Of a stretch of 64,000 bases of DNA, positions 388 through 61,636 are shown in pieces. The stretch covers positions 54,030 through 118,029 of the forward strand of contig JASAND010022083.1 of assembly GCA_030248195.1 (NCBI GenBank), in the 5' to 3' direction. Made by a program: the position numbers and the translations under genes. Below the pieces are notes generated by a model, which ran no database searches, was not told where the DNA came from, and was given only the letters and a program-made list of their open reading frames with translations. This DNA is from Trissonchulus latispiculum (Eukaryota > Nematoda > Enoplea > Enoplida > Ironidae). Each line of letters begins with the position of its first letter. Within the stretch, counting starts at the first letter, position 1.

Positions 388-983
388 TACAGTCGTGGAA
401 ATTAAGAATTGATGCAAATCAAGCAACTAATCAAAAGTCAGTTTGGTTAAGGTTAAAATAAGGAAGGCTTGCAACCTAATCAGAAGTTGTTAAAAATTAA
501 CGTAGTTTTATTGCAAAATACTTAGTACTTATTATGTGTACTTAGTATTACTTATTGCTCTATTTATTAGGCTTTACTTACAATGGCTTTTTATTTTTAA
601 GACGAAAGAAAGTTCAAAATGCCGTAAAATCATTCATATTCTTATATGTTATGATATAAAACTGTGTGCTTTGCTGCAAGCGTTAATACACGTTTTAATT
701 CACCTTTTTAGCGTATTTGAGCTCAGTAGTATAAAAATGGGGGTTCTGGCTCAGAGGCGCAGGAGGCGCTTGAGGCAGATCATACGCAACTAGTTTGTGG
801 CGCTGGTGGCGCTTCATATGAAAGTAACTTCATTTGTCAACTGCTTTGATAGTGGGTCCTACCACCCATATTCTACTACTTAACACTTTGTGGCGCTTGA
901 GACATCTCATACTACCAACACACTTCTACAATATAACCAGTTTAGACCGGTTATGATAACTCATCTTAACCTACTTTCCTACC

Positions 984-1018
984 TATAAATACAACTCCAC
1001 ACAGATAAGTTTTCAGTC
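984..1018 (+). promoter_or_regulatory. TATA box and initiator of the left-arm gene
   Basis: TATAAATA at 984-991 is followed about 30 nt later by TCAGTC at 1013-1018, which matches the common metazoan/arthropod initiator. The ATG begins at 1019, so transcription from this initiator would give a leader of only a few nucleotides. The right arm has the same arrangement on the minus strand around 2973-3008. Confidence 0.5.
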
Positions 1019-1471
1019 ATGTCTACTGCATTCATTGCTGTTGCTTGCATTGGTGTTCCGAAACTTGGAGATATTCCCTTGGAAGTTACTGTTCTGATTA
1101 AACAACACAAGTCCCATCAGCCGGATATACATCATTTGTTTATCCGAGCTCCCTACGATCTGAAGAAACTAACATCAAATCAACAGGAGTCAATACACTA
1201 TGTCACCAGGCGATCATGTTTCGACTGGGACACTAGTCCTCATCTACGAACCTGGGATCAAGCAATGGACCTCGTCTCCAATATCTTGAAGGAAGCTAAT
1301 GTTGACAAGGTTATAACCAAGGGTATTTCCCAGTGGAACCTAATTCGATCTGGGTTGATGACCAGGGGAAACGTTATCAGGGTAATAGAGGCTGGCACCT
1401 TGGGGGTTCCCAGCTACATGCTAATGAATGATGATGAAGGCAATGGTTGCTGTCCAGATCACATGCTATGA
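1019..1471 (+). CDS. Left-arm ORF of palindromic element, C-terminus lost to a stop codon
   Basis: A 150-codon ORF starts from an ATG just behind a TATA/initiator pair. The protein is not assigned. It has FDWDTSPHLRTWD in the middle, then VITKG...WNLIRS, then a GVPS motif and a Cys/His-rich end. The overall pattern is faintly like small RNase H-fold or exonuclease-like ORFs of invertebrate transposons; this is a weak impression, not an identification. Compared with the minus-strand copy, a single A-to-T change (CTATGA against CTAAGA) creates the stop and removes about 27 C-terminal residues, including the KYCSAHRAHQL segment. Confidence 0.6.
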   Translation: MSTAFIAVACIGVPKLGDIPLEVTVLIKQHKSHQPDIHHLFIRAPYDLKKLTSNQQESIHYVTRRSCFDWDTSPHLRTWDQAMDLVSNILKEANVDKVITKGISQWNLIRSGLMTRGNVIRVIEAGTLGVPSYMLMNDDEGNGCCPDHML

Positions 1472-1659
1472 GATGGAGCGAAATATTGTTCAGCTCACCG
1501 AGCACATCAACTGCTGCATTCATTCAATAATGAAGAACAAGACAGTGAATGACATTTATGCCGATAATGTTTGTTGTGTATAACATGCTTATTACTATCT
1601 TATTCAGTAAAATATCAAACTAGTTAGTGTTTATTGATAGCTAGGAATTATCTGTCAGC

Positions 1660-2340
1660 ATGCTTAGATGCTTACATCAGCATGTTTACACTTACACGTC
1701 AGCATGCTTACATGCTTTCGTCAGCATGCTTACATGCTTACACGCTTACGTCAGCAGGCTTACTTACTCACGTCAGCATGCTTACATGCTTACGTCAGCA
1801 TGTTTACACTTACACGTCAGCATGCTTACATGCTTACGTCAGCATGTTTACACTTACACGTCAGCATGCTTACATGCTTACATCAGCATGTTTACACGTA
1901 CACGTCAGCATGCTTACATGCTTTCGTCAGCATGTTTACACTTACACGTCAGCATGTTTGCACTTACACGTCAGCATGCTTACATGCTTACGTCAGCATG
2001 TAAGCATGCTGACGTGTACGTGTAAACATGCTGATGTAAGCATGTAAGCATGCTGACGTTTAAGTGTAAACAATCTGTCGTAAGCATGTAAGAATGCTGA
2101 CGTGTAGTGTAACATGCGACGTAAGCATGTAAGCATGCTGACGTGAGTAAGTAAGCCTGCGACGTAAGCATGTAAGCATGCGAGGTAAGCATGTAAGCAT
2201 GCTGACGTAAGCATGTAAGCATGCTGACGTCTAAGTGTAAACATGCTGATGTAAGCATCTAAGCATGCTGACATAAGCATGTAAACATGCTGACGTGTAA
2301 GTGTAAACATGCTGATGTAAGCATCTAAGCATGCTGACAG
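1660..2340. repeat. Tandem repeats crossing the palindrome axis
   Basis: Repeats of about 14 and 28 bp built from CTTACGTCAGCATG and its variants run up to about 1990. Their reverse complements continue to about 2340, so the array is itself inverted. Open frames through it in several phases come only from the repeat lacking stop codons (Cys/His/Leu-rich translations) and are not genes. Copy number and exact axis may be affected by assembly. Confidence 0.85.
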
Positions 2341-2439
2341 ATAATTCCTAGCTATCAATAAACACTAACTAGTTTGATATTTTACTGAATAAGATAGTAA
2401 TAAGCATGTTATAAACAACAAACATTATCGGCATAAATG

Positions 2440-2972
2440 TCATTCACTGTCTTGTTCTTCATTATTGAATGAATGCAGCAGTTGATGTGCTCGGTGAGCT
2501 GAACAATATTTCGCTCCATCTCTTAGCATGTGATCTGGACAGCAACCATTGCCTTCATCATCATTCATTAGCATGTAGCTGGGAACCCCCAAGGTGCCAG
2601 CCTCTATTACCCTGATAACGTTTCCCCTGGTCATCAACCCAGATCGAATTAGGTTCCACTGGGAAATACCCTTGGTTATAACCTTGTCAACATTAGCTTC
2701 CTTCAAGATATTGGAGACGAGGTCCATTGCTTGATCCCAGGTTCGTAGATGAGGACTAGTGTCCCAGTCGAAACATGATCGCCTGGTGACATAGTGTATT
2801 GACTCCTGTTGATTTGATGTTAGTTTCTTCAGATCGTAGGGAGCTCGGATAAACAAATGATGTATATCCGGCTGATGGGACTTGTGTTGTTTAATCAGAA
2901 CAGTAACCTCCAAGGGAATATCTCCAAGTTTCGGAACACCAAGCAAGCAACAGCAATGAATGCAGTAGACAT
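2440..2972 (-). pseudogene. Right-arm copy of the palindromic-element gene, frameshifted near its start
   Basis: The reverse complement of the left-arm gene. It keeps the full C-terminus (GAKYCSAHRAHQLLHSF) that the left copy has lost. It has lost one base near 2945, shortly after its ATG at 2972, so the start and body are in different frames. Promoter and flanks match the left arm. Each copy is broken at a different place; sequencing or assembly error in either arm cannot be excluded by eye. Confidence 0.65.
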
Positions 2973-3269
2973 GACTGAAAACTATCTGTGTGGAGTTGTA
3001 TTTATAGGTAGGAAAGTAGGTTAAGATGAGTTATCATAACCGGTTAAACTGGTATATGTAGAAGTGTGTGGTAGTATGAGAGTCAAGCGCCACAAAGTGT
3101 TAAGTAGTAGAATATGGGTGGTAGGACCCACTATCAAAGCAGTTGACAAATGAAGTTACTTTCATATGAAGCGCCACCAGCGCCACAAACTAGTTGCGTA
3201 TGATCTGCCTCAAGCGCCTCCTGCGCCTCTGAGCCAGAACCCCCATTTTTATACTACTGAGCTCTATTT

Positions 3270-6965: not shown

Positions 6966-8588
6966 TGTAGCGGGGCTAGTAAGTTTCACCTACGTATTAA
7001 CTCCGTTACCACGCCCTGACGTAGCGGACTCGGAGACCGTGGCACAGATGGATAACGAACCAACTTCAAGAGACGGTCGGGACAGCCTTGCCAGATAAAT
7101 ACGCAGGGATAGATCCGATCCTAAGGGCGAGATGACTCGCACTCTCACTCACTCAGATTAGGACTACCTACCTAGCAGGAGCTCAGTGATACTAAATCTA
7201 ACTAAATACACTTTAATAGAGAAGGAAACAACAAGTTATTATTATAACAAGATAATATAAATTATGGGTCGAACCCTCACACACACAAACAGACAAACAC
7301 ACAACTTACAGTTACAGCAGAGGTTGGACAGGCCAACCAACGTACCAAGCTCTGGGGAGAGCTGGGGGAGCAATAAATATTTACACAGGAAATAGGGGGA
7401 AATAACGCGTACAGAAAGACGGGTGTTCACAACCGTGTATCCTACTTACACCTATCCTACTTACGCCTAACGTTTGATGTTTCCGCATAGAGATAACAAA
7501 ACTCAAAATCCTACTTACGCCTAAAGCTCAAAACTGAAATTCCTACTTACGCCTAAAATATTTCCTTGCAAAACTCTCATTCCTACTTACACCTAAAACG
7601 AAATCACTACCGTAATCCACTTACATATTTTCCTTTATTCACTTTGTACAATGTTACAGTGCAATTAATATGTAGAAATAATAATCTGTATAAACATCTT
7701 CATTTAAATTCGGTGTAACATTTCCACAAATAGTGCGGCAGCTGTGTATTTAATTTAACTTTAAACTGAAGAAATTACACATAACATTAAGACATACAGT
7801 CGAACATCTATTCATTATATTATTAGAGGTTATAACACTTAGTGAGGAGAACCAACATCCAAGTACCCTCCTGATTTGGGACAACGTATAAGTTAAATCA
7901 TTGTAAGTCAATAGTCGAAGCTCAGTTGTCCTCCGACAGAATGAGCTTTTGGGGAACAAAAATGTCTCTACTTTAGAAAATTTAAAATTTTTCACATTTG
8001 CTGGAGCATTTTAATTAGTTTGGTGAATTTTTCATTTGCAGGGAAAGTTGGAACGTTTTTCTAATAAATAAAGTTGAGTCACAAATTTGCTATTTAGTTC
8101 ACATCAGGTGGACATCCCCCCCTTAAAGAAAAATTGAACTTCCACAACAAAGTCAGAAAGTGGATACTGTAGATTTTAGGCGTAAGTAGGAATCCGAGTT
8201 TTGCGTACACATTCTTTAGGCCTAAGTAGGAATGTGAGTTTTGACAGAAAGAATTAGGCGTAAGTAGGAATTTGAGTTTTGAAAACGATTATGCGTAAGT
8301 AGGATAGGAGTAAGTAGGAGTATAACAGAAGTACTAAGACTAAAAAGGGGAAGCGAGTGTTGGGCTGGATCCTCCCACGAGCGCCCCCTAGTGATGGAAT
8401 TTCCCCCAATCACGTAGCTCCCAAGGGGGGAACCCACCCAATCCCATACGGACACGTTGGGGGAGCTACGTGACTTGCTAAAAGTTTTCCCAACCATGAT
8501 GATGTTATATGAAGCCTGACGGGTAGCTATGCTAGCTACAGCCGCCAGCAACGGAAGGGTTGGCCGTGTGTCATCTTGATCCGTTTCA
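6966..8588 (-). repeat. 3' LTR of the outer element, interrupted by a hAT-like insert
   Basis: Aligns with the right LTR on both sides of the 7434-8323 insert. GTGT precedes it. The junction reads TTCACAAC|insert|AACAGAAG, where the right LTR reads TTCACAACAACAGAAG, so the right copy preserves the empty site. Confidence 0.75.
7434..8323. mobile_element. Non-autonomous hAT-like element, copy 1 (subterminal TCCTACTTACGCC repeats)
   Basis: About 890 bp, with several copies of TCCTACTTACGCCTAAA near each end in opposite orientation. Ends are CGTGTATCCTAC and GTAGGAGTAT. The whole unit is homologous, in reverse orientation, to the two halves of 11423-15761. No transposase is seen. The empty site in the other LTR shows no clear target duplication for this copy. 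Confidence 0.65.
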
Positions 8589-9845: not shown

Positions 9846-11108
9846 TCAGAGGATTTTACAAACAGGAAAGATGACTTTCCAGACTGTAAGAGTCTTAGTT
9901 AATGGAATGAACGGATCATGGGTCATGAGGCTCGATGACGACGCGCTCAATATTCCCTTCATGATCAGGTCTGTGGATCTATGATGGTCACTTGGAGGGG
10001 GTTCCAAAGGATTCCAGATGGTCAAGGCGAAGCACGGGTAGAAGATGTTCTTCTCTTGGCCCGGCGGAGCACAACCGGCAATATGGACACCGGTCCAATT
10101 CGGAGGCATATCAATCTTCTGATTGCAAAGGGCCGCCGGTGCGTCCTGACGAAAGAACGGAGGCGAGGGCAGACCTTGGTTGTAGCGCTCGGCCGCCGCA
10201 TCAATGCGCTTGCGTACGACGTCGAGGTAGGCGTCACGACGGGCGCAGATAGAGGGACACGGCTGAGCCTGTCCTCCCACAACTCATCAGGTCCCGCCTG
10301 CATAAACCAAAGGCCCACTTCGGTATAAAGGGACCCCTGGACGTTGTGCCCGTTCCAATTGGACGTATTGAACAGGAAATTGTACTTCCCGTCAAAAGTC
10401 AGATCGTCCGGTTTGAATCCACGAGGAACCCGTACGCCAAGACCCCACCAAGAGTCCGCGGAAGCTTTCCCATAGTAACTTCCGATGGTTTGGACCAGGA
10501 ACTCCTGCATATCCACGGACTGATAGAACGTGTGGTGGTCCCCGGGACTCGACTTAGAACTCTGAGGAGAGTCCCTCTGATCCAATCCAACTTCATTCCA
10601 GACCATTGTCCTATTGATTTCATCATTGAAGCTTCGTGTCTGAGCAACTGAACCACCAGGTTTGGTTGTCATCCAGAGATACTAGGCTTGATGCTGCTGT
10701 CACGAAGGCCGAGTTCGATGACGAACCCATTTCGGACGATTCAGGTTCAGATAATGTGGTCAAAGAACTGGAAATCGTTGGATCCAGAGAAGGGGCACTG
10801 CTTTTCCGAGCAGTCCCCAATGCCCAGCCACTCTTCTTTCTTCTCAGGTCCGCTGTCGTAGCAGAACTGGACCGGGGGCGCATTCTCTGCACCGGGTCCC
10901 GGTCGTTGCACGACCCAGAATTCATTCTCGACGTGGAAGGCAGACATCCCATGCAGTCCAAGTGGGAGTCTCCACGATGTCTGATCACCGAATATGGCTG
11001 GTGACGTAGTTCCCGTTCCTTCAAGCGTAGGCTTGTGCGCTTTTGATCCATTGAGTTGAACTCTCTTCTTAAATCTAAAAGTTCTTTTTGAAAAAGACAA
11101 TTAAGCAC
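9846..11108 (-). pseudogene. Unidentified GC-richer coding block in the outer LTR element
   Basis: A protein-like translation runs on the minus strand but needs several frame changes. The upstream part (11100 to about 10750) contains TSWRLPLGLHGMSAFHVENE and EEWLGIGDC. The middle (10672 to about 10270) contains FYQSVDMQEFL, DSWWGLGVRVPRG and NTSNWNGHNVQ. The downstream part (10280 to 9846) contains RRDAYLDVVRKRIDAAAERY and PPNWTGVHIAGCAPPG. Base composition is clearly GC-richer than the neighbourhood. I do not recognise the family. Position inside an LTR element lacking pol fits either an unusual element gene or a captured host gene. The plus-strand ORFs over the same bases look like shadows. 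Confidence 0.5.
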
Positions 11109-11967
11109 AACTCAAAAATATTCCTAGGTACCCCAGAAAAATACAAATGTATACGTCTATAAAATATTGTACAAATACAATAAATATTGGTGTCAATTGT
11201 AGCAGATGACTGCTATTTTTGGCCTGAAAAAGAAACAATTACCAAAATTAACCTAAATGGATGCGATTAGACAAGCAAAACCACAAACACAAAGAAAATT
11301 ATCACAATAAAATTACTTGTTAATTAGGTACGAACTTTGGAAAAATTCCTAGCTCAAATCCCAAAAATAGCCCTAAAATTAGCTCACCCCAAAAAAATGC
11401 TGTATTAGAGCCTAGATTGAGGGCTTACTCCTACTTACGCCTATCCTACTTACGCATAATCGTTTTCAAAACTCAAATTCCTACTTACGCCTAATTCTTT
11501 CTGTCAAAACTCACATTCCCACTTACGCCTAAAGAATGTTTGCGCAAAACTAGGATTCCTACTTACGCCTAAAATCTACAGTATCCACATTCTGAGTATG
11601 TTTGTTGTGTTGTTCAATTTTTCTTGAAGGGGGTCCACCTGATGTGAACTAAGGAGCAAATTTGCGACTTAACTTTATTTATTAGAAAAAAATTTCCAGC
11701 TTTCCCTGCAAATGAAAAACTAACTAAATTAATTAAAATATTCCAGCACATCTGAAAAATTTTAAATTTTCTAAAGTAAAGACATTTTTGTTCCCCGAAA
11801 GTTCTTCTTGTCGGAGGACAACTGAGTTTCTACTATTGACTTACATTGATTTAGCTTATACGCTGTTCGAAATCAGGAGGGTACTTGGATTTTGGTTCTC
11901 CTCATTAAATGTTATAACCTAAAACATTCATGAATAGATGCTCGACTGTATGTGTTTAAAGTTTATT

Positions 11968-12165
11968 TATAAGAGTCCGGATTTAATATGCAAAAGGGTA
12001 ATCGATTGGCTAAGCTTAGTTAAAGCCACGTCAACATTTACTGCAGTATCAGAACACGCCAGCCAAATCGTTACAACACATCAGGAGCACTCGTTACAAT
12101 ACATCAGGAGCACTCGAACAGATCTCTCCAGAATTTATACACTACTCAAAACAACTACTTTTACA
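11968..12165 (-). repeat. 3' LTR of the NADAR gypsy element
   Basis: 198 bp, matching 15204-15401 with very few differences. The purine-rich tract at 12166-12183 (read on the minus strand) lies immediately before it, and TTATT lies outside. Confidence 0.9.
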
Positions 12166-12241
12166 CTCCTTCCCCCTATAAGGAAAAGGAGTTAACCATA
12201 AACTAAAGCAAAGCTATAAATAATGGTTACCACAGAAAAAA

Positions 12242-13333
12242 TTATTTGTCCAGGGATTTGACTGACTTCAAGATTTCATTCATAATTAAACGTCCACCCT
12301 GGCTGTTTACATGCAAATCAGGGCGACCATTTATGGAGCCAAAGAGGTTCGGCTGTTGCATGAGAGTGTAAAGCTTGATAACTTGCACAGATGGGCCACC
12401 AGCTGAAATTTTCTTGACAATTTTCCCCACCATTTTGTTAACTTTCACCAATTCCCGTTGCATTTTACTCTTACCGTATTTGGAACTAACAGAATCGTCG
12501 CATAATCTGGGAGGAATTTCACAGATGAAGAAAGGACAATGTGGTTTCTCCTGGCAGAAAAGAGGAATTTGTCGCTGAAACTGCTTAATGACTTCTTTGG
12601 CGCGACGGGGCTGGTGCCCTCCGTCAGGGGCTAGCAATCCACGGCGGCGCGGCAAATTGTTGGTACCCCCAAACACAACACAAGCCTTATACCCCCCGTG
12701 AGTAGCAACTCGGGCCACCTTAATCAGCGTTTGTATCTTTGCCCCCGGAATAACTACTTTGCGCACGGCAGGGCTGAAAGGAAAGTAACGACCTTGGGAA
12801 TCGGTGATTAAAAGAACTTGATGGAAACTAAAGGAACCGCGGATGAAAGATCGGGTCATCATCAAAATTTTTCCCAAACGATTTTGACCGGGCAAGTGAA
12901 GGCCGCTGCGAATCAGACGCAACACCTGTCCCTTGTCACAGCCCGCACCGAAGTCTTTATCGTAGGGGTTAGCCTCCACTAAATACGCGTTCCCAGTGTC
13001 AACTAAATGAACTCGCATTTCTTGATCTAACACGAATTTGCTGAATATGAGCCCCTCCATAATAAGGAATTTCATTAGATCCCATTTGTTTTGCTGAAAA
13101 TGTGTCAGATTTCTCGCTTTCGCGAGGCGTTTGCATGCAAAAGGATCGGCGGTATCCTTGATGGTGTTGGCTACTCGAAGATTCCCAGTAATGAAACATT
13201 TGCAATAAGTATACGCTTGTTCCAACGAAGAGAAAACATAGCCAAGGACCTTAATACCATTTCCCGGCAGCAAGAACATGTTGGAAAACGGAGAATCCTT
13301 CCCAAGAAAGGGAACGATGTTTTTGCTGTGAGC
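12242..13333 (-). CDS. NADAR domain + SGNH hydrolase fusion protein, third gene of a Ty3/gypsy element
   Basis: The frame is open from 13333; the first ATG is at 13279 and gives 345 residues. Counting from that ATG, residues 1-147 form a NADAR/YbiA-like domain: FSSLEQAY (17-23), CKRLAKARN, KWDLMK, then YLVEANPYDKDFGAG (99-113) and LPGQNRLGKILM (129-140). The domain's usual N-terminal motif (FLGKDSPFSN) lies upstream of the ATG. Residues 154-342 are SGNH hydrolase-like: TDSQGR (D160, S161), PGA (G179), GGTNN (N207/208) and DLHVNSQGG (D321, H323). NADAR proteins cleave N-glycosidic bonds of ADP-ribose-like or related nucleotides; SGNH enzymes are esterases/lipases. The gene follows integrase, where other gypsy elements may carry env. 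Its role in the element is unknown. Confidence 0.85.
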   Translation of the reverse strand, partial: AHSKNIVPFLGKDSPFSNMFLLPGNGIKVLGYVFSSLEQAYTYCKCFITGNLRVANTIKDTADPFACKRLAKARNLTHFQQNKWDLMKFLIMEGLIFSKFVLDQEMRVHLVDTGNAYLVEANPYDKDFGAGCDKGQVLRLIRSGLHLPGQNRLGKILMMTRSFIRGSFSFHQVLLITDSQGRYFPFSPAVRKVVIPGAKIQTLIKVARVATHGGYKACVVFGGTNNLPRRRGLLAPDGGHQPRRAKEVIKQFQRQIPLFCQEKPHCPFFICEIPPRLCDDSVSSKYGKSKMQRELVKVNKMVGKIVKKISAGGPSVQVIKLYTLMQQPNLFGSINGRPDLHVNSQGGRLIMNEILKSVKSLDK

Positions 13334-13350
13334 CTAAAACAAATGATTGT
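13331..13350 (-). promoter_or_regulatory. Candidate 3' splice site before the NADAR-SGNH frame
   Basis: On the minus strand the frame opens just after CATTTGTTTTAG, a pyrimidine-rich AG that is also the in-frame stop TAG. The conserved start of the NADAR domain then follows with no ATG before it. This fits expression from a spliced subgenomic mRNA, but the donor was not identified. Confidence 0.4.
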
Positions 13351-13684
13351 CGACTTTAAAAAGCAAGTGAGCTTGCAATAATCATTTGAGTATTCAACCA
13401 CATTTTTGCAACCAAAATGTTTTATATACGTTAATGATAAAAACGTGTAGAGTGTGGTAAGATGCCATAGCAGCGACAACAGAGGGCATGGGTTCCCGCA
13501 CCGATTAGGCAACTTACGACACGCTGCACTTACATACACATTGAAGTTGCATATACATATAAATGCCGAATTTAGGAACTTTTAAACAAATGCTGGGCAA
13601 ACCAGGTAACAGTTGCCGCTGCCAACGACTACAAAGAGCATGTGTGCTCGCGCCGACAGGCATCTGTTACCACGGCTCAACCAG

Positions 13685-15202
13685 TCAAAATTGATAACTT
13701 TTAAGTCGATTCGCATGGACGGTAATGGCGCGATGGAGTGGCATTTTTACAACGTTAAGGACAGGAGATTTTAGTTTCACTACCACATAGGGACCGGACC
13801 ACTTCGGTAATAGTTTCTTTGGTTTAGGCACACGCGATACCCAAACCAAGTCACCTGGAGCGAATGTTTTAGTTTTAGTTTTCGAGTCGTATTACATTTT
13901 TGTTGCTGCTGCGCGTGTTTAGTATTGTCCTGAGCCAATTTTTGCATGTGTTCTAAACTTTTGTATAAATTTTGCACGTAGTGAAATTTACTTTGAGCCC
14001 TTTCAACCGTAGGCGGATCTATTTGCAGGGGTATACTAGCTTGACGCCCGTACACTAACTCAAATGGCGTATACCCGGTAGATGCATGTACAGCTGTTCT
14101 GTGAGCGAATAATGCAAATGGAAGGTGGATATCCCAATCCTTCCCTGCATCGGATACGTATTTTGAGAGTGTGTTAATTAGGGTGCGATTATAGCGCTCA
14201 ACTAGACCGTTACCCTGAGGATGGTAGGTAGTAGTGCGCTTCTTCTTAATGCCAAGAATTCTTGACACTTCTTTAATTAAGCTTGAACAGAAATTAGTAC
14301 CTTGATCAGACAATAAATTTTTAGGGATCCCATGTCGACAAATAATCTCATCTACTAATTTCTGCGCGACTACATCTGCGCTTACCGAAGCTACTGCGAA
14401 TACTTCTGGCCATTTTGTAAAATGATCCAAAAATACAAGCAGGTATCGGTTGCCTCGACGTGTTCGCTTAAGTGGACCCACGACATCTACACACAATAGC
14501 TCAAAAGGGTTGCTCACTGCTATCGACTGCAAGGGCACTTTGTGGCAAGGATCCATATCCTTAAACTTTTGGCATGTAATGCAACTTTTGACATAGTTCT
14601 TGATGTCACGGCCCATTTCCGGCCAGTAGTAAAGTTGCTGTGCTCGGCCCAATGTTTTGAAATACCCTAAATGGCCAGCAGCGGGTTGATCGTGCACTTG
14701 GTCAAGGGTTTTAAGCCTGAGTTCCGAAGGCACTACAAGCCGATGTTTATGCTTTCGACTAGTGAAGTATAGCAGATTATTTCTCATACTAAATCTCCCT
14801 AGCTGGGTGCCTTTCGGTGGTGTAGTTCCGCAAAATAGACTGCTTTTGATGGAACGACAGTACGGATCTTTCTCTTGAGCATTTAGGACTGCCTCATAGG
14901 TGATTGAATTTGGAATTTCGGCCTGAATTAACCCTGTCAAGTGTCCTTTGGCGGTACTGGTTGGCTTCGACGGGCACAGTACATTTGATCTTAATACTAA
15001 GCTATACAGCGTTTTCGGAAAATAAAGGAAAGCCATCTTAGACCATAGTGGCAATGTTTCAGTTTTCACTCCCACAGAAACGCTGGTCTTGGAAAACAAA
15101 CGGGATAACCCATCGGCATTACCATTCTTTTTGCCAGGTCAGTACTTAATGGAAAATTTGTATTCTTGTATAAGTAGTACGTGTATCTACTCGCAGCGCC
15201 AA
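13685..15202 (-). CDS. Ty3/gypsy integrase with RNase H remnant
   Basis: Continuous minus-strand coding begins with an RNase H tail (GKKNGNADGLSRL near 15100-15140). The H2C2 zinc module follows (HDQPAAGH ... CITC), then the DDE core: DVVGPL, SDQGTNF and NGLVERYN, with 35 residues between the second Asp and the Glu, and the GYTPFELVYGR segment. The C-terminal part (GDLVWVSRVPKPKKLLPKW, GPY) is read only after a frameshift near 13870 and ends at a stop at 13685-13687. The catalytic residues are intact. It would process and join LTR DNA ends. The upstream pol domains are deleted from this copy. Confidence 0.9.
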
Positions 15203-15203
15203 A

Positions 15204-15401
15204 TATAAGAGTCCGGATTTAACATGCAAAAGGGTAATCGATTGGCTAAGCTTAGTTAAAGCCACGTCAACATTTACTGCAGTATCAGAACACGCCAGCC
15301 AAATCGTTACAACACATCAGGAGCACTCGTTACAATACATCAGGAGCACTCGAACAGATCTCTCCAGAATTTATACACTACTCAAAACAACTACTTTTAC
15401 A
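15204..15401 (-). repeat. 5' LTR of the NADAR gypsy element
   Basis: 198 bp, the partner of 11968-12165. On the minus strand it is followed by TTTGGCGCTGCGAG, a plausible primer-binding site, and preceded by the TTATT duplication. Confidence 0.9.
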
Positions 15402-16012
15402 TTATTTAATTTAGTTTATTCTTCAGTTTAAAGTTAGATTAAATACACAGCCGCTGCAGCACTATTTGTCCAAATGTTACACCGAATTTAAATGAAGATG
15501 TTTATACAGATTATTATTTCTACATATTAATTGCACTGTAACATTGTACAAAGTGAATAAAGGAAAATATGTAAGTGGATTACGGTAGTAATTTCGTTTT
15601 AGGTGTAAGTAGGAATGAGAGTTTTGCAAGGAAATATTTTAGGCGTAAGTAGGAATTTCAGTTTTGAGCTTTAGGCGTAAGTAGGATTTTGAGTTTTGTT
15701 ATCTCTAGGCGGAAACATCAAACGTTAGGCGTAAGTAGGATAGGTGTAAGTAGGATACACGGATTGAGGAGAGACAGGTACACAATTTATACACGTACAC
15801 AAACACACAGACCCTAGAGAAAAAATTTTCAGATTTTTGACCCTAGGGGGGTTTACCTACCTAAGAAAATTGGAAAAAAACTCGTGCGCTGAACGCGAAG
15901 GACTACGGGGGGAACCCCAACAAAACTAAAACAAAAATTGACAAAAATTTGAAAAAATTTTACGAAGGGGTTCAGGAAAGAAATCCCTGAGCTCCTGGCA
16001 GCCTAACCCTAA

Positions 16013-17191
16013 TATAGCGGGGCTAGTAATTTTCACCTAAGTACTAACTCCGTTACCACGCCCTGACGTAGCGGACGCGGAGACCGTGGCACAGATGGAT
16101 AACGAACCGACTTCAATAGACGGTCGGGACAGCCTCGCCAGATAAGTGCGCAGGGATAGATTCGATCCCGAGGGCGAGATGACTCGCACTCTCACTCACT
16201 CAGATTAGGACTACCTACCCAGCAGGAGCTCAGTGATACCAAGAGTACATAATACATAAGAGTGTGACAAGCGTCACACTCTATGTAATCAGCTCGAGAG
16301 CCATGCTCTGCGCGCTAACGGCCCATCCCCCCCCGCAATTGCGTACCTAGTTGACCCTCCCGCAAATTAGTACTTAGTACGCAATTGCGTATGTTCACTC
16401 GTTCTACAATAATCCTTCTATCGGGCCCCTCCCGCAAATGTGACCTATCACTTTTCAATGTCAAATGATAGGTCACATTTGCGGGGGGGGGTCCTGATAA
16501 ATGGAATATTGCAGCAGCGAGTGAACATACGCAATTGCGTACTAGGTACTGATTTGCGGGGGGTCCACTAGGTACGCAATTGCGGGGGGGAGTGGGCCGT
16601 TAGCGCGCAGAGCATGGCTCTCGAGCTGATTACATAGAGTGTGACGCTTGTCACACTCTTATGTATTATGTACTCTTGGTGATACTAAACCTAACTAAAT
16701 GCACTTTAATAGAGAAGGAAACAACAAGTTATTATTATAACAAGATAATATAAATTATGGGTCGAACCCTCACACACACAAACAGACAAACACACAACTT
16801 ACAGTTACAGCAGAGGTTGGACAGGCCAACCAACGTACCAAGCTCTGGGGAGAGCTGGGGGAGCAATAAATATTTACACAGCAAATAGGGGGAAATAACG
16901 CGTACAGAAAGACGGGTGTTCACAACAACAGAAGTACTAAGACTAAAAAGGGGAAACGAGTGTTGGGCTGGACCGTCCCACGAGCGCCCCCTAGTGATGG
17001 AATTTCCCCCAATCACGTAGCTCCCAAGGGGGGAACCAACCCAATCCCATACGGACACGTTGGGGGAGATACGTGACTTGCTAAAAGTTTCCCCAACCAT
17101 GATGATGTTATATGAAGCCTGACGGGTAGCTATGCTAGCTACAGCCGCTAGCAACGGAAAGGTTGACCGTGTGTCACCTTGATCCGTTACA
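16013..17191 (-). repeat. 5' LTR of the outer element, interrupted by a hairpin MITE
   Basis: Matches 6966-8588 outside the inserts. It lacks the hAT-like insert of the left LTR but carries the 16240-16678 MITE at a site that is empty in the left LTR (CAGTGATACTAAA near 7182-7195). Confidence 0.75.
16240..16678. mobile_element. Hairpin MITE, copy A, 7-bp target duplication
   Basis: 439 bp beginning CAAGAGTACAT and ending with its reverse complement. The arms are self-complementary over about 200 bp each, meeting near 16460, with runs of G and C and a nested short hairpin AGAGTGTGAC...GTCACACTCT near each end. GTGATAC flanks both sides (16233-16239, 16679-16685) and occurs once in the uninserted LTR copy. 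The family has another copy at 56060-56478 and a decayed one near 22436-22809. No coding capacity. The superfamily was not recognised; 7-bp duplications are uncommon. Confidence 0.85.
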
Positions 17192-25185: not shown

Positions 25186-25438
25186 GGAAATAATTATGGA
25201 CTCTTGCTAATACCTATCTGCAAGTTGTATTCCTATGTAGTTCTGCTTAACTACCACATGTAGATTCGAAGCCAAATAGACAAATCAGCCAGATGTCATG
25301 GGAGGGGGGTGATGTTTTCTTTCCTTCACCTTCGTTTCTCAGCTTCAAAAAGTTCCTCCTTAAGTTGTTATACAAGTAGACAAATCTAATAAGTAAGAAT
25401 CCTCTGGCTTGCATGCTCAATGCTCACAGTCCGTGGAA
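22810..25438. other. AT-rich DNA with microsatellites, no gene seen
   Basis: Contains an (AGATT)n tract at 23564-23588 and a (AT)n tract at 25117-25180. The 80-codon ORF ending in Tyr-Ile repeats around 24940-25182 is produced by the AT tract. Nothing else was recognised. Confidence 0.5.
25117..25180. repeat. (AT)n microsatellite
   Basis: An uninterrupted run of about 64 bp of AT dinucleotides. Confidence 0.95.
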
Positions 25439-25743
25439 ATGTAAGGGAAGCAGGCATAGGAAAGATTGATAAGCCTGTAATGGGAGTTCAGCTGATGGTC
25501 TCGTGGTGTAGTGGTTAGCATGTCTAACAGAAGGGCCGTGGTTCGATGTGTCTAGAGCAGAAGGGCCGTGGTTCGATCCCGGGACCAATTCTTTACTTTC
25601 AATGGTGAGTGAAAAGCTGAACCTCCCTCTTCCCTTCTCTCTTCTAGGTCCTGGTTTCGTGGGTACAAGGGTGCCTGACGCCTCCCGTTCGGGCTTGTCC
25701 TCGGTTTCTTCATGATCCACCAGCCCTGGTAGAAGCGCTACAG
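25439..25743 (+). repeat. tRNA-related SINE-like repeat, copy 2
   Basis: Partner of 100-387. The tRNA-like part is rearranged: the anticodon region is lost and the AGAAGGGCCGTGGTTCGAT segment is present twice in tandem, so it carries two B boxes. The rest follows copy 1 closely to GCGCTACAG. Confidence 0.7.

Positions 25744-49206: not shown

Positions 49207-49236
<30 letters not shown>
48250..49236. other. Intergenic DNA between PTPMT1 and the large gypsy element
   Basis: Holds an AAT-rich tract near 48245-48280, a GGATCGGATCGG / CCGATCCGATCC inverted pair at about 49086-49129 and a (TA)n tract into which the gypsy element has inserted. No gene. Confidence 0.5.
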
Positions 49237-49240
<4 letters not shown>

Positions 49241-49628
49241 AAAAACCAGTTAAAACCGGTTGCAATCCAACAACACGAAAAGGAAGTGCTTTCAAATCTG
49301 CATGTGTTAAGACGTCTGTCGTAATTTGCATATTTGTGTTACTTCAGACGTCTATTGTGAATTTTCTAGTGTGTGTTACCGAGTTCTGTGCTGCTAGTTG
49401 GTTTATTTTTGTTGTGGCCCTGTGATTTTATATACTTCTTATGCTTATTTCTCTGTCGGTAAAATATGTCGGTCTATGATACACCTTCGTGACCGCAGTT
49501 GGTAAGAACTAGTTCGTAGTTTAGGTAGGTTGGATTTAAAATATTCAGTAAGGCCCTGTCGGTTTACCTGCAATCGCACAGCCTCTCAATCCCAGGCTAA
49601 GTCCAGGCAGTTAGCCTTGGGATCAACA
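49237..49628 (+). repeat. 5' LTR of the large gypsy element
   Basis: 392 bp, TG...CA, matching the 3' LTR with scattered substitutions and small indels, so the insertion is not very recent. Confidence 0.9.
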
Positions 49629-49630
49629 AA

Positions 49631-49646
49631 TGGCGACCGTTGACAG
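49631..49646 (+). other. Primer-binding-site candidate
   Basis: TGGCGACCGTTGACAG begins two bases after the LTR. TGGCGACC is complementary to a tRNA 3' end of the ...CGCCA type; the exact tRNA was not determined. Confidence 0.6.
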
Positions 49647-50805
49647 TTCGACTCTGTCTGGTTAGAAATCACGTTTTTTCTTCTTTTAGATGAAATTTAT
49701 GGGATGGTATTTGGCTATGTATTTGATTTGAGCGGTGAAGGGTTTACTTTTTGGTGAACACAACACCACCCAAAATTTCGGTTAGGTAAATTAATAAATT
49801 AAATTAATTATTTATTTAGCAGCAAAACCTACCTGGCTAACTCCCAGGGCTGCTTTAAAAGCCATTTATTTAAATACTAATTATATTTTAGTATAGTTTA
49901 TAGTTTTATATTATTTAATTATGAATAAATTTGTGCATTTTTTCAGGTTCCTTTTTTTCTGCTCCAATTTTTTCTTGATTCTAAATTTTTCTTGTATGCG
50001 CTGTTTTGAATGAAATTTAACTTTAACTTCTCAATTTTTCCACCTTTTGTGTATGACTTTCAAGCTTGCGAAATATTTGGGCAACTATCAGTCTAAACAA
50101 CTTTGTGTGGAATTATTTCAATCACTTTCGACATTTCTCACTTAAAATTATGAAAACGTAATGCTAAATTTATGATTGCTCAATGTAAAATTACACTCTT
50201 GTGTACGGTCCAAGGCCGGACTAGCTAATACACACATTCTTTCAAAATTGTGCGCGCTCAGTCAGTCTTGTCTGAGTGTCAGGTGTTGAGCGGTCGGCCC
50301 CTTTGTTCCCCATTTCTTACGCTCTATTGATTTTTGTGCTGGTCTCTGGGGTCTGTCAATTGGATTAGTTTGTTTACGCGGTTTGTTCCTTTTATTTTGA
50401 AATTTCTGTTCTGGTGCTAGATTTTGTAGCCTTTCGTGGAAGCCTAGTTTTGTTAATAAAAAATATACATTTGTTTCTAAAAAAAGTAAACTTGCGTCAC
50501 TTTTTAGTTTTCGCTTGCTTAGTTTTGTAGTTGGTCAGGGTGATTGGTCGAGTTGAATCTGATCTGCACACACTCTGCCGAACTGTTGCAATCTTCTGAA
50601 ATTTCCAGAAATTCGCTTGTCGGGGGTCACGCTCTCAGAGCGTACTTTCTACAAGTCTATTTCTGTGATTTAAATTCGTTTGTTCAGAGATCGTATAGTC
50701 TAAATCTCTACATTTGCTAAGCCTTTATTTTATTAAGACGCAGGACTCCGCGCTCAGTTAATTCCAGTTGCAACTCTAGTTCAGCATTCTCGATATTTGA
50801 AAGAC
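49647..50805 (+). other. Untranslated leader of the large gypsy element
   Basis: About 1.15 kb between the primer-binding site and gag with no ORF of note. It includes the short dispersed repeat at 50190-50262. Confidence 0.5.
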
Positions 50806-51747
50806 ATGGCGAACATCAAATCGTGTCTTGCGCTTTTTAAAAGTTTGAGTCCCTACATTGGTAGAGAGACTTCGATAACACCAGAAGAATGGATCACTAG
50901 TTTTGAGGCAATTGTCCAAGCTAATTCTATCCCAGATGCTAATAAGCGAGCTCTTCTTTTTGCAAAACTTGGGGAAGCTGTCCTTCATAGAATTTCTTTA
51001 CTCGGACTCACAAAAACCTACGCAGAAATGGTTAAACGTTTGAAGACTCTTTACGAACCTGTGACAAGGACAGCGGCAGAACATTCTCGAAGTTTTTACG
51101 TTCGTGTTAAGAAGGAAAACGAAAAGGTGCAGGATTTTGCCGCTGACCTGGAAATCATGGCTAGATAAGCTTTTCCAAATGATTCTGATAATTTGAGGGC
51201 TATAAATGTTTTTGAGCAACTACGAAAAGGTCTGCGCCCTGAACTGAAAAAGCTGAGTGTGCCCCTCTTAATTGACTTGGAAAGTTGGGGACAAACTTTG
51301 GAGAAACTGCACAAAATTGTTATCCAGCTTTCCAGGTTGGAGGAGGAACAGGAATCAGATTTGTCAACCTCCGCTTCCACTTCTAAAATTGAATTCAAGT
51401 CGAAAGCTAAAGTCAGTGGTGTCTCTACCACTGTAAATTCTGATTTGAATGAAAAGCTGACCCAGCTCGAAGCGCAAATTTTGGACATGAAATCTAGGAA
51501 TGCGTAGTTACAACTTACACTAGAAGCTATCAAGTCTGGCAAGTCGGAAACTCAAAATCAGGAATCTGAGCCTTCTACTTCTGCGAAAGTCCCTATTGTA
51601 GCATCAGCTCAAGCTATTCCAGTGCGGCAGCAAAGCTTACATTCAGAAACCCAACCCTCTCAGCGCGATGTCAAAAACGTTACGTGTTATTATTGTGGCA
51701 ATCTAGGCCATTTTGCCTCAATTTGTGCAATGCGCCACCTAAAATGA
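50806..51747 (+). pseudogene. gag: gag of the large gypsy element (capsid region and zinc knuckle)
   Basis: One frame from ATG 50806 with in-frame stops at 51166 (TAA), 51505 (TAG) and 51745 (TGA). The capsid-like part has EEWITSFEAIVQAN, RALLFAKLGEAV and LYEP, and later GLRPELKKL, as in gypsy gag. The frame ends with a zinc knuckle CYYCGNLGHFASIC (51685-51726), a C-X2-C-X4-H-X4-C box for RNA binding. Two stops before the knuckle mean no full-length Gag. Confidence 0.85.
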
Positions 51748-51910
51748 AAATTCAAACTTTTGGCGCGGTCGCAAGCGTAAAACTTATTTTAGCGACTATC
51801 AGAATGAAAGGTGGAAGAGTGACGAAAATTACTGTTCAGTTCACAACGATCAGCAACGCGGCGCTCAGACAACTTTTCTTCTAGATCCTACGGGCAAGCC
51901 TTTTCAACTT

Positions 51911-53080
51911 ATGTCCTGTGAGCAGTACCAACAGGCTCAATCTCAAACTTCTTTAATTGGATCTTTGAAGTCATCCAATCAGAATTTTTCGGACTGTGAG
52001 AGGCGAGAACCTTCGCAGCAACAAGGTGCACTGTTTCCGTCTCCACCTGAAGTAAATTCTACCTTAATCTCTACTACCGTTTCGAACTCTAATCCAAGTG
52101 TTTGTTCAGTCCTTGCAACTTCAGATAACATCGTGGAAAGTTTGTTGAAGTCCTATCCAAATCAGAAGTCAATTTCTTCCGATCAAATTTGTTCAGTCTT
52201 TTGTTCTTACGCTGGAGTGGTAAAGTCAAACTTACCTCCGAATCATCAATTTGGACGAACGAATTTGCCAAATTCTCAAAATTCTTCGAATACGTATGTA
52301 CGTACAAATACGGTTTGCTCTATTCAACCAAATTCCAACGGTTTTTCAGCTCCGCGTTTTAATACGTACGTACGTACAAGCCCCTGCACTAACGTTTCTT
52401 TTTCAACCGACGGTTTTTCTGGAAATTCAGTGCCAGATCAATTTCAGGCAATGGAACGTGTTCTTCTTATGACATACCAGCAGCAACGTTGGGTAAAGTT
52501 GGTACCGGTAGATCGGCACAAGGTCGGCATGCGTAATGCACTTTTTCCGCGACCAATTCAACAATCATTGGTACCTCATCAAGGAAATTTTCAGCGCACA
52601 ACTTCGCGTTCTGGTAAAACTTTTCAGACTTCACGTTTCCAAAATCAGAATGCTGGCTTTAGGCCTAGGAATTTTCAGCATCCTAGGTTTTTGCTTCCAA
52701 ATTTTCGGTATAATTTTCCGTTTCAAAGGCACCAGCCTAGATTTTTCAACGCGCCGACAAATTTTTATCATAGGCACCTTATGGGAAGTGCTTCAAGAAT
52801 GGCGTCTTCAAGCAGGCGCAGTTGCGAAAGCCAAGCGTTTTCTTTTAGACCTCGCGTGGTTTTCGCATCTGCAAATGCCTCATCAATCAGAACAGGGACA
52901 TGCACATCTAGTTCACCTAATCTAGGAGTGCCTTCAGGAGCGAACTTTTTGGCTCGCCTCTCGGAGAACATTCAGCATAACGGTTATACTAGTCCACAAG
53001 AAAAGAAGGATGCCTCTGTCTGCCATAGTGAAAAAATACGCACCAGTTCAATTCATAAATCAGCATACATCCTTGGATGA
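51911..53080 (+). CDS. Gln/Asn/Ser/Phe-rich ORF between gag and protease
   Basis: 389 codons from an ATG at 51911, uninterrupted, while the neighbouring gag is broken. No known domain. Composition is rich in Ser, Gln, Asn, Pro in the first half and in Phe, Arg, Asn near residues 210-290 (FRPRNFQHPRF). The position after the zinc knuckle suggests a C-terminal Gag or Gag-Pol linker read by frameshift. The Arg-rich end could bind nucleic acid. Related elements would show whether it is conserved. Confidence 0.5.
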   Translation: MSCEQYQQAQSQTSLIGSLKSSNQNFSDCERREPSQQQGALFPSPPEVNSTLISTTVSNSNPSVCSVLATSDNIVESLLKSYPNQKSISSDQICSVFCSYAGVVKSNLPPNHQFGRTNLPNSQNSSNTYVRTNTVCSIQPNSNGFSAPRFNTYVRTSPCTNVSFSTDGFSGNSVPDQFQAMERVLLMTYQQQRWVKLVPVDRHKVGMRNALFPRPIQQSLVPHQGNFQRTTSRSGKTFQTSRFQNQNAGFRPRNFQHPRFLLPNFRYNFPFQRHQPRFFNAPTNFYHRHLMGSASRMASSSRRSCESQAFSFRPRVVFASANASSIRTGTCTSSSPNLGVPSGANFLARLSENIQHNGYTSPQEKKDASVCHSEKIRTSSIHKSAYILG

Positions 53081-53393
53081 TAACTTGGATAGATTGCAAA
53101 GGCTTAGAACAATTGAAGAGGCATCCACCCAAGCAAAGGCAAAAGAAACATCTCCGAAAATCCAGAAAACTGAGGAAGAACTCAGTAAAGGCAAGGGAGA
53201 AAAGCCTTCAAAGGGTAAACGGGTACGTACGAAACTTGTGAAGACAAAGAAAAAGATCAAGTCTAAGGTGTTGGACCCAGATTTTCCGGACAAATTTCTT
53301 TTTGAGGATGTTTTACTTTCCTACTCTGATGCTAAATCAACCGAAGAAAGTTCCGGGGAAAGTTCTGATTCTGATTCGTCAAGTATAGAATAA
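53010..53393 (+). CDS. Lys-rich linker with acidic Ser-rich end, before protease
   Basis: 127 codons overlapping the end of the previous ORF in another frame. It runs from KKYAPVQFINQHTSLDD through a basic KGKGEKPSKGKRVRTK stretch to a SSGESSDSDSSS tail. Probably part of the same polyprotein, displaced by a frameshift near 53010-53080. Confidence 0.45.
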   Translation: MPLSAIVKKYAPVQFINQHTSLDDNLDRLQRLRTIEEASTQAKAKETSPKIQKTEEELSKGKGEKPSKGKRVRTKLVKTKKKIKSKVLDPDFPDKFLFEDVLLSYSDAKSTEESSGESSDSDSSSIE

Positions 53394-53462
53394 AAGCTCT
53401 TATACTCTCAGCCACAAAAGGCACCAAAAACTGAGCCAATTTTTAATAATCGGAACTATTTA

Positions 53463-53950
53463 ATGGCTTTTGCTCAGGAAGATAAATATTTTGTTGGAGC
53501 TCAACTGAAAATTCCGCCTATTCATTCGCCAGTGGTTGTGGTATCTGTCTCTGGGTTGAAGACGTTAGCTTTACTAGATACTGGTGCGAATATCTCGGTT
53601 ATTTCGAAAAGCTTTGTTGAGCATTTACAAAAGAAGTCACCAGAGGCACTCACGCCCGGCGAGCAACGTTTTGCTTCAGCTACCGCAGCTAATGGTACTC
53701 CGATAGATTTTTGTGGATCAGTCAAATTGAATTTGTCTTTTCAAGGATATATTTGGTCTCAAAAGAAACTCCGAATGTCTCGAATATTTTTCTTAGAGTT
53801 GGAGTTAGTGTGCAGCCTAATTCAGAAGCATGGGTTCCAATATCTTGTGAATCAAATGAACAAAATCCAAATATTGAGAATAATAACGAAGTTCTTTCTC
53901 TCATACGCACTTATGCATCCAAAGTGCAACCCAAGACAGCTCCTTGGCCT
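53463..53950 (+). pseudogene. Aspartic protease region of the large gypsy element
   Basis: LALLDTGANISVIS with the catalytic D-T-G-A codons from 53577. Upstream VVVSVSGLKT is the first strand. The flap region (ASATAANGTPIDFCG) follows, then a frameshift near 53740 before the second half. Confidence 0.8.
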
Positions 53951-55131
53951 TCACGTTTTCAAGGTCCACCAAAAATGGTACGAAATTCTATGAAATTGTT
54001 GAAAAGTACCATTGCTATGTGGTTCCTGGCATTGTTTCTAGTGAAAAGCAATCTCAATACGTTCGAGTGTGGAATCTTGGTCCTGAAGCTTTGGACCTAC
54101 GGCCAGGAATGGTATTAGCTTATGCTGACGATCTAGTCTCTGTGAAAAATCCTAAAGGCAAGGAAGCTTTTCTGCATATGGGTGATAATTGGTTTGAGCA
54201 GGAGTACGTATGTGAGTCAGATCATCTTACGGGAGAAAACCTACAAGTCAATTCTGCTATTCACAGTTCAAACATTAGGGAAACGATACATGAAGAGCAA
54301 CAACAACCTAAAGAAAAAAAGCCGTTAACAAAGGAAGAACAATATGAACAATTTCTGAAAGAAGCTCAGGTAGATAAATTCGAATGTTCGGAAAAATCTA
54401 AGGAAAGGTTCAAAAAGCTATTACGTAAGTACGTACAAGTGTTTGCTACGCCTACTAACTTAGGAAAATTCATAACTGGACAACATCTGATTGACACTGG
54501 TATGGGTGGACCAGTAACAGCTAAGTCCTACAGAGTGAATCCTAATGAAAGACTACAAATTGAAGAACATATTCGGAAGATGCTGAATCAAGGTATTTGT
54601 TCTCCATCAAATAGCCAATGGTCATCTCCATGTATGCTGGTAGGTAAGAAGGATGGAACAACAAGGTTTGTCATCGACTATAGGAATCTAAACAAAATCA
54701 CTAGGAAAGACCGATATCCACTACCTAAGATAGATGAAATTCTAGATATGTTCAGCAAAGGAAAGTTTTTATCTACCTTAGATCTTAATAGTGGCTACAG
54801 GCAGATAGAAATGTTTCCACCTCACAAAGAGAAAACTGCATTTATTTCACATATGGGACTTTTTCATTTCAATGTCATGTCTTTTGGATTAATGAATGCT
54901 CCAGCCACTTTCCAACGCATCTTGGAGCGCATTTTTGCTGAACTTCCAGTTTACATCGATGATCTATTGATCCCTTCAAACGATGAGGATCACCATTTGA
55001 AAATGTTGGAAGTAGTTTTTCAAAAATTGACTGACCATGGTCTTCGATTGAAAATGAAAAAGTGTGTCTTCTTTCGCAAACGAGTTGAATATCTTGGACA
55101 CTTTATTTCAGAGAAAGGCATTAGAAACTGA
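53944..55131 (+). pseudogene. pol: Reverse transcriptase domain of the large gypsy element
   Basis: The 395-codon frame begins with a linker and then all RT blocks: NSQWSSPCMLVGKKDG, RFVIDYRNLN, YPLPKIDEI, STLDLNSGYRQIEM, FGLMNAPATFQ, YIDDLLI (catalytic Asp pair 54958-54963) and LGHFISEKGI. Between FQRILERIF and YIDD about six residues usual in the family are missing, probably an in-frame deletion. The frame shifts near 55120 into the RNase H frame. Confidence 0.9.
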
Positions 55132-55740
55132 CTCTCGTAAAGTAAGTGCAGTTCAAAATTTTCCTGTACCTAGAACAGTCAAGCAGCTACGTAGATTTTT
55201 AGGTATGGCAGGTTACTATAGGCGATTTATTCAAAATTTCAGTACCATAGCCGGACCTTTGAATAATCTTTTGAAGAAACAAGAATGTTTTCATTGGACT
55301 GATGAATGCCAGACAGCGTTTGATAGTTTGAAAACAGCGTTAACTCAAGCACCTGTGTTGGCCTACCCAAATTGGGATAACCCATTTTTGTTAACAACTG
55401 ATGCTAGTATTCAAGGTCTCGGTGCGGTACTAGAGCAAGAACAAGAAGGTAAATCATGACCAAAACTAATCGCTTATGTAAATAGGTGCAGAAAAGAAGT
55501 ACGAAATATACGAACTAGAAGGATTAGCTGTAGTTTGGGCATGTAAAATTTTCAACATTATTTAAGGCATCGTCAGTTTACCTTATATACGGACAACGAA
55601 GCTCTTAAGTACATCTTTACCTGTCCAAAACGTCAAGGCAATAGTAGATTAGCTAAGTGGCATATAGCATTGCAAGAGTACAAATTTACAGCCTTATCGA
55701 AAAGGGGTTGACAACCCAGTACTTTCGCGTAATTCAAAGT
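55122..55740 (+). pseudogene. pol: RT connection and RNase H of the large gypsy element
   Basis: RRFLGMAGYYRRFIQNFS (the RT thumb/connection) and LLTTDASIQGLGAVLEQ, the first RNase H motif, are in one frame to 55459. TLYTDNEALKYIF and LAKWHIALQEYKF follow with stops and frameshifts. The catalytic Asp of TTDAS is kept. Confidence 0.85.
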
Positions 55741-56059
55741 CCAAGGACAACTTTTTGGCTGACATTGCTACGGCGAATTCACGATTGCAGCAAGTACGTA
55801 CGCAAAATAACAACACAGAAAGAACATCTGAAAACGATGAAGAGTTTGATGTAACTGAGCACATGTATCCACCTGTATTCGCTATTGAAAAGTTTTCTGA
55901 TGAAAGTTGGAGTCAAGCTTTAGATGAAGATCGTGGATTTGGTCCTTTTAAAGACTATATGGAAACTGGTCGTTTAACAACGGACGAAAACGTTTGGCGT
56001 TTAATTCGTTTTTAATCGGATTTTGTTTTGGAAAACGGTATTTTGTATAGAGATCATAT

Positions 56060-56478
56060 CAAGAGTACATAATACATAAGAGTATGGCAAGTGTCATACG
56101 CTATGTATTATGAGCTCGCTACATCCTCTACACGCTATCGGCTGACCCCCCCTCATAAATCAGACCCCCCTTGACCCCGCCCCTATACATGTACGGGGTC
56201 CAAACGCGGGGGTCGGGGTCTATGTTACTATACTTACATGTTAAACTTGACGGGCCCCCAATTTGTGTATGGGGTTTAAGCTTGTATGATTTACACATCT
56301 GTGTACAAAATATACATGCACGAGCCCGATCCCCCGTTTGGACCCCGTACATGTATAGGGGCGGGGTGAGGGGGGTCTGATTTATGGGGGAGTCAGCCGA
56401 TAGCGCGCATCGGATGTAGCTAGCTCATAATACATAGAGTATGCCAGCTGTCATACTCTTATGTATCATGTACTCTTG
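56060..56478. mobile_element. Hairpin MITE, copy B, inserted in gypsy integrase
   Basis: 419 bp, CAAGAGTACAT...ATGTACTCTTG, with arms complementary over almost their whole length. ATCATAT at 56053-56059 and 56479-56485 is the 7-bp target duplication. Same family as 16240-16678. It interrupts the integrase reading frame. Confidence 0.88.
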
Positions 56479-56782
56479 ATCATATTGATTCGTGTGGACG
56501 AAGGAGATTAGCTTTACCTCGACAAGTGTGCGTCCCACAAAAGTTTCGAAATTATATTTTACATCAATACCATAGTGCAATGGATAATGGTGGACACCAA
56601 GGAGTACCTCAAACTCTTTTTAAGATAGCTACTAAATACCATTGGCCAACGTTAACTGGAGATGTAACAGCATACGTACGTAACTGTATTGTTTGTGCGA
56701 AGTTTACTATTGGACCGAAACAACCGCAAGCTCCTATGAAACAGTATCCTCCTGTGACTAGACCATTTGAATCATACATTAA

Positions 56783-61627: not shown

Positions 61628-61636
61628 AGGGGAGGA
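61628..61636 (+). other. Polypurine tract
   Basis: AGGGGAGGA directly before the 3' LTR start TGTCAAAAACC. Confidence 0.75.

Follow-up and report, generated by a model that had tools for sequence, protein, structure and literature searches.

A Ty3/gypsy deletion derivative in a nematode genome with a NADAR domain and an SGNH-like half encoded downstream of its integrase

We analyzed a 64,000-nucleotide stretch of DNA from the nematode Trissonchulus latispiculum (assembly GCA_030248195.1, contig JASAND010022083.1, forward-strand positions 54,030 to 118,029), referred to below as the window. On its minus strand lies a Ty3/gypsy retrotransposon flanked by long terminal repeats (LTRs), in which an integrase is followed by a separate open reading frame (ORF) that encodes a NADAR domain and an SGNH-hydrolase-like half with similarity to lipid esterases. 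NADAR proteins are a family of enzymes that take ADP-ribose off nucleic acid bases. The element had been picked out in an earlier note made from the sequence alone; coordinates of its features are collected in Table 1.

The boundaries of the element are as the earlier note had described them: two 198-bp direct repeats that differ at one position, with a TTATT duplication at both ends. The LTR termini are TG...TA rather than TG...CA. A paralogue of the host repeat that lacks the element aligns with the joined flanks at 510 identical columns out of 564, with 15 gap columns, part of them near the junction. Paired LTRs and a short target site duplication are those of a Ty3/gypsy LTR retrotransposon, and together with the element-free paralogue they show that the LTR-bounded unit inserted itself in the manner of a retroelement. 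Since only 1 of 198 LTR sites differs, the insertion is recent, with a wide interval around this estimate.

The repeat that hosts the NADAR element is one of two foldback repeats, or repeats resembling miniature inverted-repeat transposable elements (11426-15762 and 7433-8322), with arms composed of CCTACTTACGCCTA motifs. The second of these has an empty site of its own, at 16926/16927 in another copy of its flanks.

Between the LTRs, the integrase frame matches the Pfam families Integrase_H2C2 (PF17921, E = 5.8e-23) and rve (PF00665, E = 6.1e-14), and thus has both the H2C2 finger and the DDE core of a Ty3/gypsy integrase. Its C-terminal module, which lies off-frame from the core, contains SGPYVVVKL, which we take from the shape of the motif to be of GPY/F type. 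Three-frame translation reveals, upstream of the integrase, a stretch that, by similarity seen by eye rather than by a profile match, is presumably an RNase H tail. No gag, protease or reverse transcriptase (RT) was detected between the LTRs by three-frame translation, so this copy is a non-autonomous, internally deleted Ty3/gypsy derivative. The integrase had been called intact-looking: this holds for the zinc finger and the catalytic core, but not for the off-frame C-terminal module. Pol as a whole is damaged, with a stop codon in the presumed RNase H tail and genes missing. A GPY/F motif at the integrase C-terminus is named in the excerpt of PMC5408684.

The frame downstream of pol has 363 codons, whereas the longest frame among 2000 dinucleotide-model sequences of this 1615-base stretch has 266; a chance ORF is therefore rejected. 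Like the env-position ORFs of bdelloid LTR elements, this ORF3-like frame is separate, lies past pol and is enclosed by the LTRs: about 350 bases separate it from the pol stop (13685-13687), and 64 bases separate its end at 12242 from the polypurine tract. No ATG occurs ahead of the conserved NADAR start, the first methionine being residue 19, within SPFSNM. As the frame begins immediately past CATTTGTTTTAG and in-frame stops lie between it and pol, splicing from an upstream donor is the simplest reading of how ORF3 would be expressed. The TTTTAG site is a candidate acceptor because it is located where the frame opens; it is one of four AGs sharing 9 pyrimidines out of 13, and is thus not singled out by pyrimidine content. 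Expression of ORF3s of LTR elements from spliced messages is described in the excerpt of PMC5408684.

That this frame (12242-13333) encodes a NADAR domain was claimed in the earlier note, and the profile search it had suggested bears this out: Pfam NADAR (PF08719) matches with E = 1.4e-23 and 84.4 bits, against a curated cut-off of 35.1. The NCBIfam model TIGR02464, a riboflavin-intermediate N-glycosidase, is passed as well, although its threshold is placed narrowly below the score (74.2 bits versus 73.7). Residues E38, K45 and E120 are conserved in 6 of 6 and 42 of 42 aligned rows (for E120, this follows in part from how the search was built), and D125 is retained. The domain therefore has the catalytic glutamate, the lysine and the acidic residue of the last strand, E120 being the residue of the YbiA type. 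Its predicted structure has the YbiA fold. When a viral library was searched with this model, 39 matches were obtained at E ≤ 0.001, and most of the named entries among the best 50 of 176 rows are either NADAR proteins or polyproteins of viruses. Sequence searches restricted to the NADAR half produced 13 candidates, of which one was confirmed (P0001, 30% identity). With the LTRs, the duplication, the integrase core and the profile match, the presence of a NADAR within a Ty3/gypsy element is well supported.

The C-terminal half is likely an SGNH hydrolase, as its motifs suggest. S179, G197, N225 and H341 follow the order of SGNH hydrolases, blocks I, II and III being recognized by motif only. 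Spacing is akin to that of the ZfL2-1 esterase: 18 residues from S to G and 28 from G to N, versus 22 and 30, and 116 from N to H, versus 87 (ZfL2-1 values from residue numbers in the excerpt of PMC3905857). In a low-confidence model of the full-length protein, the S and N blocks each come right after a predicted strand (172-177 and 216-222, respectively), and H341 is followed by a helix (345-362). However, whereas the earlier note had listed D-S, G, N and D-x-x-H blocks, only the first three stand: the final block, R-P-D-L-H, is D-x-H and not the D-x-x-H of block V. A loose SGNH motif matched the domain and also 25 of 200,000 shuffled sequences, and a stricter pattern found no match in the domain or in 1,000,000 shuffles; neither figure is a clean test, because both patterns were written with this sequence in view. 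A small SGNH hidden Markov model built from 10 sequences scored 2.7 bits, its strongest local match falling on the histidine block; 9 of 3000 shuffles equaled or exceeded this score. The reversed domain scored -1.2, and no hit was reported for the NADAR half.

The checks against libraries and folds proposed in the earlier note yielded nothing for this half beyond this weak score with our own model, and here another explanation has to be weighed, which we hold to be somewhat unlikely: the C-terminal half may not be an SGNH hydrolase, or may be a dead one serving for binding only. No match was found in Pfam, NCBIfam, PHROG, PDB sequences or a phage tblastn search; a profile search returned no family at E values up to 10, with HMMER filters dropping weak matches; and hhalign gave a probability of 1.1%. 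A plasmid search returned four records at E values of 0.5 to 9, which we take as chance, three of them lying under IS3 transposases and one being without annotation. Model confidence is low, with a mean predicted local distance difference test score of 36 for the single-sequence model of this half and values below 60 for each 10-residue block of the full-length model from residue 171 onward. Foldseek against the PDB gave nothing at E ≤ 0.001 among the best 50 of 427 matches, and no SGNH entry appears by title among the best 50 of 90 Foldseek/VIA rows, nor among a further 50 listed; the absence of SGNH entries means little given this low confidence. These results and the D-x-H block argue for the alternative, while the order and spacing of the blocks, the strands that end just ahead of two of them, the rarity of the loose motif in shuffles and the peak on the histidine block argue for an SGNH hydrolase. 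We use the label SGNH-like, and do not file this half as a member of the SGNH family.

What might such a protein do for the element? The arrangement of a NADAR with an SGNH-like half may protect or help it, and the conserved catalytic residues of the NADAR agree with the earlier suggestion that the protein may undo host ADP-ribosylation or change NAD-derived metabolites. Our preferred reading, to which we give roughly even chances, is that of a young, non-autonomous Ty3/gypsy deletion copy whose spliced, env-position ORF3, NADAR plus SGNH-like, would erase host ADP-ribose for the benefit of the element. The element family would carry this accessory ORF3 in the env position beyond the present copy, and would make it from spliced RNA. 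Host ADP-ribosyltransferases would mark the RNA, cDNA or proteins of the element, and the NADAR would most likely remove ADP-ribose from nucleic acid or related conjugates, while the SGNH-like half might bring the particle to membranes or add an esterase step. Every step beyond a NADAR with its catalytic residues is something that we infer. A bolder version has the envelope replaced by a two-enzyme ADP-ribose eraser, in which NADAR would cut N-glycosidic bonds, freeing guanine or other conjugates on the nucleic acid of the element from ADP-ribose, and the SGNH-like half would act on ester-linked or O-acetyl-ADP-ribose, so that the element would escape a host defense based on ADP-ribosylation; we regard this as very improbable.

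As to substrate, the excerpt of PMC11125620 describes tests of four NADAR subtypes from E. coli and phage, among them YbiA, each of which de-ADP-ribosylated guanosine in vitro; several positive-strand RNA viruses of animals encode NADARs, whose proposed target is host-made ADP-ribosylation (excerpt of PMC9503650). These two lines of evidence favor the removal of host-made ADP-ribose conjugates. Instead of conjugates on nucleic acid or protein, the NADAR may have a metabolic substrate, riboflavin intermediates as for YbiA, or act on small signals derived from NAD. This we consider quite unlikely: a riboflavin step would be of no evident use to a retrotransposon, and the in vitro activity on guanosine speaks against it, although the NCBI model passed is that of a riboflavin-intermediate enzyme, E120 is of the YbiA type and E. 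coli gained no in vivo protection from DarT1 through YbiA or phage NADARs (excerpt of PMC11125620).

The same DarT1 result also counts against the preferred reading of ORF3 as an eraser of host ADP-ribose, since activity in vitro need not mean protection, and several other observations join it there, besides the form of the last SGNH block and the empty library searches. Enzymes of the YbiA type have riboflavin intermediates among their substrates as well. In the NADAR domain, two tryptophans present in 41 of 42 rows are replaced, by F at position 128 and by L at 147. The family definition does not require the pyrophosphate-binding tryptophan that is lost at 128; its equivalent in a Phytophthora NADAR, W133, binds pyrophosphate, so activity may be reduced. 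The NADAR-SGNH-like ORF rests on a single copy and, as pol is damaged, may be open merely because this copy is young. No relative of the whole protein was found at E ≤ 0.001 among 1687 candidates, and pattern matches to it were confirmed in 0 of 2 cases in viral_contigs and 0 of 27 in genome_contigs. For the SGNH-like half alone, 0 of 94 and 0 of 17 candidates were confirmed, with no phage match. Relatives of the integrase were likewise confirmed in 0 of 1 and 0 of 32 cases in viral_contigs and genome_contigs. Because the collections searched are prokaryotic, viral or metagenomic, with few eukaryotic genomes, these searches say little about eukaryotic copies.

Knowledge of a single copy and the decay of pol would also suit a one-off passenger, that is, a NADAR piece from the host or from a long interspersed nuclear element (LINE; Tx1-type ORF1) with no role in the element family. 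A NADAR is indeed carried by an oyster Tx1 ORF1 (excerpt of PMC12477816), and codon usage of the ORF is weakly correlated with that of the integrase (0.19), but this comparison is uninformative, the two halves of the ORF reaching only 0.30 between themselves. We judge a passenger unlikely. The ORF sits between the end of pol and the polypurine tract, on the same strand; env-position ORFs are of a known kind; and positions 12166-13800 lack a second ORF, A-runs of at least 6 and direct repeats of at least 11 bases. A later nested insertion of a LINE or host fragment is likewise not favored, in view of the lack of such repeats and A-runs. The repeats that do occur in this interval are three 10-base pairs, and a single T-run of 6 is found just past the ORF, at 12241.

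Parts of this arrangement are already in print: NADAR domains have been described in the Pol of Ectocarpus Gypsy elements and in an oyster Tx1 ORF1, as have GDSL/SGNH ORF3s after pol. The Ectocarpus Gypsy lineage (for example, Gypsy-12_Ec32; excerpt of PMC12477816) likewise consists of Ty3/gypsy LTR elements with a YbiA-family NADAR; however, compared by description only, the domain lies there at the Pol N-terminus, whereas here it belongs to a separate post-integrase frame and is joined to an SGNH-like half. The Crassostrea gigas Tx1 LINE is, as here, an animal retroelement that captured a NADAR, but it is a non-LTR element with the domain in ORF1 position and no SGNH part mentioned in the same excerpt. 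For the second half, bdelloid Vesta1 has a GDSL/SGNH-type enzymatic ORF3 past pol, as here, and one isolate provides a precedent for fusion, a GDSL/SGNH domain being joined to a DEDDy enzyme in one ORF3; the Vesta1 ORF3 keeps its invariant residues, whereas in our element the Asp block is out of register (excerpt of PMC5408684). The word NADAR is absent from that paper on bdelloid ORF3s. An SGNH-type esterase with demonstrated lipid binding is also found in the ZfL2-1 ORF1p, but this is a LINE ORF1 with a coiled coil and a catalytic D279/H282 pair of the D-x-x-H form, and no NADAR is mentioned in the excerpt of PMC3905857. We found no paper on a NADAR after an integrase, or on NADAR with SGNH, judging from title listings of the open-licence literature.

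NADAR capture has thus been seen in a brown alga, in an oyster and now here, at three positions (Pol N-terminus, ORF1 and ORF3) and in two element types, Gypsy and Tx1 LINE. Repeated capture, if true, would suggest that hosts truly hinder retroelements by ADP-ribosylating nucleic acids or proteins. In Drosophila without PARP-1, mobile elements are mainly upregulated, perhaps indirectly (excerpt of PMC7712786).

Table 1. Positions, in the window, of the features of the NADAR-bearing element and of its element-free paralogue
Feature	Positions	Strand	Remarks
Host-repeat paralogue without element (empty-site paralogue)	7433-8322	minus	junction between about 7773 and 7789
Target site duplication TTATT, left copy	11963-11967		
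3' LTR	11968-12165	minus	198-bp direct repeat, 1 difference from 5' LTR
Polypurine tract AGGGGGAAGGAG	12166-12177	minus	immediately precedes 3' LTR
ORF3-like open frame, NADAR + SGNH-like	12242-13333	minus	363 codons
SGNH-hydrolase-like half	12245-12838	minus	residues 166-363; block residues S179, G197, N225, H341
NADAR (YbiA-type) domain	12839-13333	minus	residues 1-165; PF08719, TIGR02464, fold model, residues
Possible 3' splice site AATCATTTGTTTTAG	13334-13348	minus	NADAR frame opens there; candidate from sequence
Spacer, pol stop to NADAR frame	13349-13684	minus	stops in all three frames
Integrase C-terminal module (..PKWSGPYVVVKL..) and pol stop	13685-13870	minus	three-frame translation; frame differs from core
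Integrase open frame	13780-15138	minus	H2C2 zinc finger ~14560-14733, DDE core ~14218-14511
Presumed RNase H tail, approximate limits	15097-15186	minus	stop codon inside; sole remnant upstream of integrase
Primer-binding-site-like TGGCGCTGCGAG	15190-15201	minus	two bases past 5' LTR; complement has CCA end
5' LTR	15204-15401	minus	198-bp direct repeat, 1 difference from 3' LTR
Target site duplication TTATT, right copy	15402-15406		

Several other features were observed in the window. A second, older-looking Ty3/gypsy element spans 49236-62032, with LTRs (49236-49631 and 61636-62032) that are 91% identical, a primer-binding-site-like AATGGCGACCG, a protease (53394-53990), an RT (53887-55128) and an integrase (57229-57840) that shares about 40% identity over 138 residues with that of the NADAR element. 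The approximately 3.7 kb past this integrase contain no frame of at least 150 amino acids, and no long ORF3 was seen. Three frames, 219, 162 and 117 amino acids long, overlap one another on the minus strand at 10022-11111, with no Pfam match above cut-off. Two long, near-perfect palindromes, 719-3264 (95% over 2584 columns) and 16238-16680 (91% over 447), are foldback elements, the longer one possibly an assembly fold; its arms share one frame (989-1471 and 2440-3030), of which 2440-3030 has no Pfam match. Finally, a tRNA-Pro-like sequence (CGG) lies at 157-231, and its surroundings (96-387) recur with 88% identity at 25435-25743, possibly representing a tRNA-derived short interspersed nuclear element.

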